From assembly GCA_027021085.1 (NCBI GenBank), contig JALUVB010000249.1, forward strand, positions 1 through 11,476: a stretch of 11,476 bases of DNA, given 5' to 3'. Shown here in pieces: positions 9,191-11,396 of the stretch; the stretch's first letter is position 1; every line of letters starts with the position of its first letter. The DNA is from a bacterium (GTDB lineage Bacteria; CAIJMQ01; JAADFP01). The notes under the pieces are model-generated. The model was not told where the DNA came from. It was given only the letters and a program-made list of their open reading frames with translations, and made no database searches. Made by a program: the position numbers and the translations under genes.

Positions 9191-10471
9191 ATGAAGAGAC
9201 TGGATCAAAAAATCAGGAAGCTGATCAATGCGGGCAAGAAGAAGGGACATCTTACCTACGATGAAATTAACGACCTTCTCCCTGACGAGGTAAATTCTCC
9301 GGAAGAAATTGACCAGGTGCTTGCTACCCTGGGAGAGTTGTCTATTCCCATAGTCTCTCCTGCCAAGCCACTGCATGGGAAAGCAAAGCCCAAGGAAATA
9401 AAACACCTGGAAACCGAAAGACCGCGCGAATACGATGCAGTACGGGCTTATCTTTACCAGATGGGGAAAATAAATCTTCTTACCAGAGAAGAGGAAGTAT
9501 ATTTGTCCCGCACCATTGAGGAGGGTAAGGAAAAGATTAGGGAGATTCTCTCCCGCATTATTCCCAAGGAAAACTTAGAATCTCTTCTGCAGGAGAAAAA
9601 GGTCAGGGATATTCTTAAGGAAATTAAAAGGTGTTACCAGAGCAAGACAGAATCGCCTTTCCCAAAAGAAGCAAGCCTGCCCTATCCGGTGGATTTTGAA
9701 AAATTTGCACGATTAATCCCCCGGATAAATGAGATAGAAAACGAAATAGAAAAAGCCAAGAAAAAAATGATAGAGTGCAACCTGAGATTGGTGGTTAGCA
9801 TAGCAAAGAAATATGTAAACCGGGGGCTGTCTTTTCTTGACCTCATCCAGGAAGGAAATATCGGATTGATGCGGGCCGTGGAGAAGTTTGAGTACAAAAG
9901 GGGATTTAAATTCTCAACTTATGCTACCTGGTGGATTAGACAGGCCATTACCAGGGCTATTGCCGACCAGGCAAGGACCATTCGCATCCCTGTACACATG
10001 ATAGAGACTATGAATAAACTCCTGAAAACCTCCCAGAATTTTGTCCAGGAAAAAGGGCGGGAACCTACGGCAGAAGAGCTTGCCGAACTTATGGAATTGC
10101 CGGTGGAAAAAATCAGGGCAATCTTGAAAATCGCACAACATCCTATTTCACTGGAAACACCGGTGGGCTCTGATGAAGATAGCCACTTCGGTGACTTTAT
10201 TGAAGATGAAGGAGCGGATCATCCGGTTGAGTCGGCTGCACGACAGATGTTGAAAGAACAAATAGACCACGTACTGGAGACGCTTCCGGAGAGAGAAAAA
10301 GAGATACTGAAAATGCGTTTTGGAATAGGCTCAAAACCTCCTCATACCCTGGAAGAAGTAGGGAGGAAATTCCAGGTAACCCGTGAGAGAGTGAGACAAA
10401 TAGAAGCCAAAGCATTAAAAAAACTTCGGCATCCTGCCAGAAGTAAAAAATTAAAAGGACACCTGGAGTAA
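9191..10471 (+). CDS. rpoD: Primary RNA polymerase sigma factor (sigma-70/RpoD)
   Basis: The 426-residue protein directs RNA polymerase to housekeeping promoters. Domains in order: a short region 1.1 (about 1-50, [20 protein letters not shown]); region 1.2 (about 80-112, [12 protein letters not shown]); a spacer (about 115-185); region 2 (about 192-265) with [38 protein letters not shown] and the -10-reading [17 protein letters not shown]; region 3 with the GDFIEDE finger (about 334-340); and region 4 (about 355-420) with the -35-reading helix [20 protein letters not shown]. This is the full primary-sigma pattern rather than an alternative sigma. The ATG at 9191 is the first in frame after a stop at 9137 and fits region 1.1, but no ribosome-binding site is properly spaced: the nearest GGAG (9169-9172) is 18 bases away. 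dnaG, a common neighbour elsewhere, is absent; DUF72 is upstream. Confidence 0.97.
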
Positions 10472-10564
10472 AAGGACAGGCTGTATGAGGAACCTACGAG
10501 ATGTTGCGGAATACTGTCGGTGTAATGTTGCAGAAAGGCAGTGATTTTGCCCGGAATATTTATC

Positions 10565-10593
10565 TTGACTTACCCGTGAGTGAGTGGTAAATT
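10565..10593 (+). promoter_or_regulatory. Sigma-70 promoter upstream of the tRNA
   Basis: TTGACT (10565-10570, five of six to consensus) and TAAATT (10588-10593, four of six) are separated by exactly 17 bp. Transcription would start near 10600, about three bases before the mature tRNA 5' end. It would drive the tRNA and very likely the zinc-ribbon gene behind it, since only three bases separate them and no terminator is seen. Confidence 0.6.
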
Positions 10594-10602
10594 ATCAGGC
10601 CA

Positions 10603-10676
10603 GGGCCCGTAGCTCAGATGGTTAGAGCAGCGGACTCATAATCCGCGGGTCGTAGGTTCGAGTCCTACCGGGCCCA
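10603..10676 (+). tRNA. tRNA with CAU anticodon, probably tRNA-Ile2 (alternative: elongator tRNA-Met)
   Basis: A complete 74-nt cloverleaf can be drawn by hand. The acceptor stem GGGCCCG/CGGGCCC is 7 of 7; the D stem is GCTC/GAGC; the anticodon stem GCGGA/TCCGC holds the loop CTCATAA (anticodon CAT). The variable loop is GGGTC, the T stem is GTAGG/CCTAC with loop TTCGAGT, and the discriminator is A. CAU tRNAs are initiator Met, elongator Met or lysidine-modified Ile2. The initiator is unlikely because position 1 pairs (G-C). C4-G69 and C5-G68 in the acceptor match known TilS-favouring pairs of Ile2, and the GGG start resembles tRNA-Ile, so Ile2 is favoured but not proven. The gene encodes no CCA: CCC follows the discriminator. 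The next start codon lies three bases downstream. Confidence 0.95.
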
Positions 10677-10679
10677 CCC

Positions 10680-11396
10680 ATGGAAAAGAATATAGCTTCT
10701 CAATTGGGAATTCTTTTAGAAATTCAGGATTTAGACATAAAAATCCACTCTATAGAAGAGAGTATTGCAGAAATCCCCAGGAAGCTTAAAGAAACAGAAG
10801 AGACACTGGATAATACCAGGAAGCAGATTAAAAAGTTCAAAAAGGATATAGAAAAAGCCATAGTAGAAAGAAAGAATAAAGAACTGGAACTTGAAAGTAA
10901 CCAGGGCACTATCCGGAAATATCAGTCCCAGCTTTACAACGTAAAGACCAACAAAGAATATGCCAGCCTGCTGCATGAAATAGAAGAGCTTAAGAGGCAG
11001 AATTCTGTTTTAGAGGATGGAATAATTGAACTCATGGAAAAGGTAGAATCCGGGGAGGAACTTCTGAATAAGAAGAAAAAAGAATTGGAAGAAGAAGAGC
11101 AGAACTACCAGGAGAAGGTGGAAGAAGGCAACAAGAATCTGGAGGAATTGAAAAAGAAAAGAGAGCAACTGGAGCATAAGAAAGCAGAGTTATCTCCCTC
11201 CATATCCTCAAGCTTGCTGGCCAGGTACAATAGGCTTATAAAAGCAAAGGGTATGGCGCTGGTGCCGGTGATAAATGGCACTTGCGGTGGTTGTCATATG
11301 GAACTCCCTCCCCAGGTACTGAACGAAGTTAAAAGCGGTAAAAGGTTAGTTGCCTGTGAAAGGTGTTCCCGCATCCTTTATCAAAAAGAGCCCTGA
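10680..11396 (+). CDS. Coiled-coil C4-type zinc-ribbon protein
   Basis: The 238-residue protein has a long charged N-terminal coiled coil (about residues 5-175), rich in Glu and Lys heptads, and a C-terminal C4 zinc ribbon. The zinc cysteines are Cys202 and Cys205 (TCGGC) and Cys226 and Cys229 (CERC). The conserved KTNKEYASLLHEIE (residues 89-102) marks the zf-RING_7/C4 zinc-ribbon family, which includes Helicobacter HP0958. Roles suggested for members involve nucleic-acid or protein binding; function here is not known. No ribosome-binding site precedes the ATG, because the tRNA ends three bases before it. The protein start matches the family N-terminus (LGILLEIQDLDIKI), so this ATG is probably genuine and no better start is visible. 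It is likely transcribed from the promoter ahead of the tRNA. Confidence 0.92.
   Translation: MEKNIASQLGILLEIQDLDIKIHSIEESIAEIPRKLKETEETLDNTRKQIKKFKKDIEKAIVERKNKELELESNQGTIRKYQSQLYNVKTNKEYASLLHEIEELKRQNSVLEDGIIELMEKVESGEELLNKKKKELEEEEQNYQEKVEEGNKNLEELKKKREQLEHKKAELSPSISSSLLARYNRLIKAKGMALVPVINGTCGGCHMELPPQVLNEVKSGKRLVACERCSRILYQKEP

Follow-up and report, generated by a model that had tools for sequence, protein, structure and literature searches.

Does the excision of a tRNA set the start of the mRNA that follows it? The question is raised by one end of a stretch of DNA from an uncultured bacterium (11,476 nt, here called the window), where a tRNA gene adjoins the start codon of a zinc-ribbon protein gene and where, because of this contact, almost no mRNA leader would be left once the tRNA had been excised. 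A first-pass annotation of the window had proposed that tRNA maturation releases a message with a 3-nt leader, one that needs leaderless-type initiation. We examined the locus, its counterparts in related genomes, and the signals for tRNA processing and translation around it. The best reading, to which we assign a probability of roughly 60%, is a bacterial form of tRNA punctuation that would give near-leaderless mRNAs.

A tRNA gene adjoining a start codon

All features of the locus lie on the forward strand. The upstream neighbor is rpoD, encoding the primary sigma factor (9191 to 10471), whose stop codon lies 131 nt ahead of the tRNA. It is followed by a sigma-70-like promoter at 10565 to 10593, in which the promoter scan placed TTGACT from 10565 and TAAATT up to 10593 with 17 bp between them. 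A single site of this kind does not exceed the number in shuffled sequences (mean, 1.6), and the match taken alone is at chance level; however, the block is kept, bar one spacer base, in the only congener compared (G001). Transcription from this promoter would begin about 1 to 3 nt before the tRNA, which spans 10603 to 10676, scores 74.6 bits with Rfam, and has a CAU anticodon according to ARAGORN. The junction reads ...CGGGCCC-A(10676)-CCC-ATG(10680), with A10676 as the discriminator base. Rfam, ARAGORN, the promoter scan, and the sequence itself thus confirm the promoter-tRNA-CCC-ATG layout given by the first-pass annotation, and they bear out its statement that CCA is not encoded at the 3′ end of this tRNA.

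The CCC spacer (10677 to 10679) consists of an encoded C74 plus CC, is the same in G001, and would be the entire leader left after tRNA 3′ processing. A ribosome-binding site has no room outside the tRNA, and the 3-nt gap supports the earlier argument that a normal leader would be impossible once the tRNA is excised. Our scan found no terminator between the tRNA and the zinc-ribbon open reading frame (ORF). In the predicted RNA fold, the acceptor, D, anticodon, and T stems are intact, and the AUG sits in a weak downstream hairpin. We rejected a chimeric assembly as the source of the junction, which is present in independent metagenome-assembled genomes (MAGs).

The tRNA is more likely to be tRNA-Ile2 than tRNA-Met. 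Initiator features are absent, and the acceptor stem carries C4-G69 and C5-G68, which we take to fit tRNA-Ile2 from the determinants of TilS. An initiator reading was rejected because the initiator-type CAU tRNA is encoded by a separate gene.

The ORF itself (10680 to 11396, 238 amino acids [aa]) matched the Pfam models CT398_CC, a coiled coil, and Zn_ribbon_9 at 56.8 and 55.7 bits, both above the gathering score. It resembles the CT398/CdsZ/HP0958 proteins (PDB 4ilo, 3na7, and 5y05) in having a coiled-coil hairpin and a C4 zinc ribbon, and the sequence match to CT398 covers residues 9 to 237. Unlike CdsZ, it falls short of the CdsZ equivalog cut-off (NF047363; 105.6 bits versus 275), and by these scores it is a relative within the CT398/CdsZ family and not CdsZ itself. 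Structures are known for the relatives CT398, HP0958, and MSMEG_4306; CT398 and HP0958 bind RpoN and secretion ATPase regulators (PMC5947703).

The frame is closed by a stop codon 27 nt 5′ of the ATG, and past the ATG no start-type codon occurs in frame until the TTG at codon 9. The N-terminus aligns with that of a homologue in G002, a genome of the same family but another genus; the start of this homologue has no tRNA closer than 120 nt. On this alignment the ATG at 10680 is credible as the start, as the earlier annotation had it, and we consider a wrong or downstream start codon unlikely.

Recurrence of tRNA-ORF junctions

The layout is genuine and conserved, and it recurs: the genome to which the window belongs (G000) holds five further junctions beyond the one first described. 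An ATG-initiated ORF of at least 100 aa begins within 12 nt of 6 of its 32 testable tRNAs, compared with 1 of 145 tRNAs (gap, 11 nt) in ten distant genomes. This excess is significant for G000 (Fisher P = 1.4e-4) and across five genomes (P = 9e-4), values to be read with a background that favors high-scoring tRNAs over a random sample and with related genomes that are not independent.

The additional junctions, given with the distance from discriminator to ATG, are Thr(CGU) and cinA (2 nt), Glu(CUC), with CCA encoded, and a tonB-like gene (3 nt), Arg(UCU) and mscS (5 nt), Gly(CCC) and a gene for an nlpD-like lipoprotein (7 nt), and Arg(CCG) and map (9 nt). CinA and Map match their family models from residue 1, and the NlpD-like protein has an apparent lipoprotein signal peptide at its N-terminus. 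G000, G001, and G002, all of one family, share the cinA and mscS junctions. The nlpD junction also occurs in G005 and G006, which belong to another family, and the tonB-like junction occurs in G005 as well. The map gap is widened to 21 nt in G002, and no tRNA abutting an ORF start was found in G004. Among the MAGs concerned, G001 is labeled Caldisericota and G002 Calescamantes, and others from the same class are labeled Ratteibacteria and Omnitrophota.

Two of these tRNAs stand between protein genes. A permease-like ORF ends 8 nt (G000) or 2 nt (G002) before the tRNA-Arg(CCG) that precedes map, and a sugar-kinase-like ORF has its TAG stop inside the tRNA-Gly(CCC) itself, at tRNA positions 8 to 10 (L040, 1508 to 1510, on contig C53 of G000), with nlpD beginning just past the same tRNA. 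Excision of this tRNA-Gly would take away the stop codon of the kinase message.

Maturation of the tRNA and history of the locus

The first-pass annotation had assumed that RNase Z cuts after the discriminator base. This premise now appears weak, as no RNase Z match reached the cut-off in seven genomes of the class (best, 49 bits versus 293). The best-scoring frame in G000, a 264-aa open frame with a metallo-β-lactamase (MBL) fold, reached 38.7 bits versus 292.95, and this divergent protein is a candidate RNase Z. C74, on the other hand, is encoded without exception in G000, G001, G002, G004, and G005 (162 tRNA genes examined, of which only 40 encode the full CCA); in the background, a C follows the discriminator in 22 of 52 CCA-less tRNAs (P = 6e-20 versus the class rule). 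Universal C74 without CCA was absent from the other phyla compared.

The universally encoded C74 suggests a cut one base later than the RNase Z premise implied. The C74 rule would be accounted for if the tRNA were cut after C74 and then given CA; contact of RNase P with C74 is an alternative reason for it. Comparable cuts are known from Propionibacterium acnes, a species without an obvious RNase Z, and from Streptomyces coelicolor, both of which cleave CCA-encoding tRNAs between the two Cs (PMC3848588 and PMC4681348, respectively). In this model, the zinc-ribbon mRNA would start CC-AUG and the cinA mRNA A-AUG. The leader of the proposed near-leaderless message would more probably be 2 nt than the 3 nt first suggested.

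Alternatively, each transcript may yield a tRNA or an mRNA, although not both. If RNase E/G, for instance, cut within the ORF and exonucleases then trimmed the tRNA back to C74, maturation would destroy the message and the protein would be made only from uncut or separately started transcripts. RNase E/G is present whereas RNase Z is not recognized, and such processing matches the E. coli-type route (PMC4681348). However, it would set housekeeping genes such as cinA, map, and the nlpD-like gene against the supply of tRNA, and yet their junctions are conserved. We regard this alternative as unlikely, if worth keeping in mind.

The history of the locus bears on a second alternative, neutral compaction, whereby the loss of a tRNA-Val and a leader brought the start codon up against the tRNA, the gene is weakly expressed from uncut transcripts or silent, and tRNA processing is irrelevant to it. 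G002 retains the order tRNA-Ile2, tRNA-Val, 120 nt, ATG, as compaction would have it, and the abutment is lost at this locus there. In G001, the promoter hexamers, tRNA, CCC, and ATG are all kept, but the zinc-ribbon frame is broken after about 60 codons by the tandem duplication of 7 bp in A-rich sequence (L002, about 1520 to 1550), a break that is either real or an assembly error. The tRNA-ATG spacing is kept in the congener, in support of the first-pass reading, but not in G002. Standing against compaction are the independent junctions with other genes, conserved across genera and above the background rate, and we consider it improbable.

Farther out, the zinc-ribbon gene is preceded by a tRNA, in most cases CAU and/or Val, in 19 of 30 genomes and, within 1.5 kb, in 48 of 80 contigs. 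The linkage is old and the direct contact derived. This old neighborhood, which corresponds to positions 9191 to 11396 of the window, with tRNA-CAU and/or tRNA-Val upstream of the CT398-like gene, extends over many phyla. RNase P RNA lies downstream of the zinc-ribbon gene in 11 of 18 loci examined. In two Omnitrophota contigs (L253 and L262, near 2490 to 2501), the zinc-ribbon frame is open into the tRNA-Val, with no ATG, GTG, or TTG between that tRNA and the matched zinc-ribbon region.

Plausible leaderless initiation and proposed tRNA punctuation

A message starting two or three bases before its AUG would have to be translated by leaderless-type initiation. The 16S rRNA of G001 carries a normal anti-Shine-Dalgarno sequence, and roughly half of the genes have a Shine-Dalgarno-like motif, as judged from contig samples of the two congeners, G000 and G001 (sample sizes near 415 kb and 257 kb, start codons called crudely). 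Both congeners show a roughly twofold excess of TANNNT boxes that end 4 to 10 nt before the ATG of genes lacking such a motif (47 versus 22.7 and 37 versus 17), while the box is depleted in genes that have the motif. There are thus signs of widespread promoter-made leaderless mRNAs in the genus. Because of this enrichment, and because examples of leaderless-type genes are kept between the congeners, leaderless initiation is plausible here, and the earlier claim that the zinc-ribbon message needs it gains support from how common such initiation looks in the genus.

A separate promoter within the tRNA gene, making a leaderless or short-leadered zinc-ribbon mRNA independently of processing, is very improbable: leaderless promoters do look common in the genus, and the T arm contains TAGGTT, which loosely resembles a −10 box and whose last T lies 21 nt 5′ of the ATG, but the acceptor stem GGGCCCACCC directly before the ATG holds no TANNNT box where a −10 box should be, and the promoter scan found no promoter within the tRNA.

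According to the punctuation reading, the promoter at 10565 would drive a single transcription unit comprising the tRNA and the zinc-ribbon gene. RNase P would cut the 5′ end of the tRNA, and a 3′ endonuclease would cut just past the acceptor stem and probably 3′ of the encoded C74. The 3′ cut would release the tRNA together with an mRNA that begins CC-AUG (or CCC-AUG) and that ribosomes would translate by leaderless initiation. Across the candidate class, tRNA genes would serve as punctuation before, and sometimes between, protein genes. We infer cotranscription, cleavage, the exact cut site, and translation of the product from sequence. More tentatively, and with rather less than even odds, punctuation may be class-wide, with a noncanonical 3′ tRNA endonuclease cutting at C74, a fixed set of near-leaderless mRNAs, and their output tied to tRNA maturation. 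The further idea of the first-pass annotation, that translation status could be linked to the output of the zinc-ribbon protein, is speculative.

Punctuation of mRNAs by tRNAs is textbook biology for mitochondria. For animal mitochondria, it is attributed to Ojala et al. (1981; cited in PMC5203842). As in that system, tRNAs here adjoin protein genes at several places, and their excision would set leaderless or near-leaderless 5′ ends. In contrast, the setting here is a bacterial chromosome, where a minority of tRNAs is involved, Shine-Dalgarno-led translation runs alongside, and cleavage is proposed; moreover, the mitochondrial 3′ cut is made by RNase Z/ELAC2, for which the seven class genomes gave no match over the cut-off. 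Bacterial leaderless mRNAs are known from P. acnes (PMC3848588), S. coelicolor (PMC4681348), and mycobacteria (PMC4633059), and they share a leader of less than 10 nt, which leaves no space for a Shine-Dalgarno interaction. Those mapped arise mainly from transcription starting at or near the start codon, whereas here tRNA 3′ processing would make the end.

Cotranscripts of a tRNA and an mRNA, as proposed here, also occur elsewhere, as with tRNA-tufB of E. coli. Similarly, a tRNA-Lys lies within the 159-nt 5′ untranslated region of TK0306 in Thermococcus kodakarensis (PMC4247193). No near-leaderless product is described for these two, while here only 2 to 9 nt separate discriminator and start codon. 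We found no bacterial precedent for tRNA punctuation in the literature searched, with most subscription journals outside its reach. If true, the bacterial version would show tRNA processing defining mRNA starts, it would be a natural source of leaderless mRNAs, and it would point to a further tRNA 3′ endonuclease in lineages without a recognizable RNase Z.
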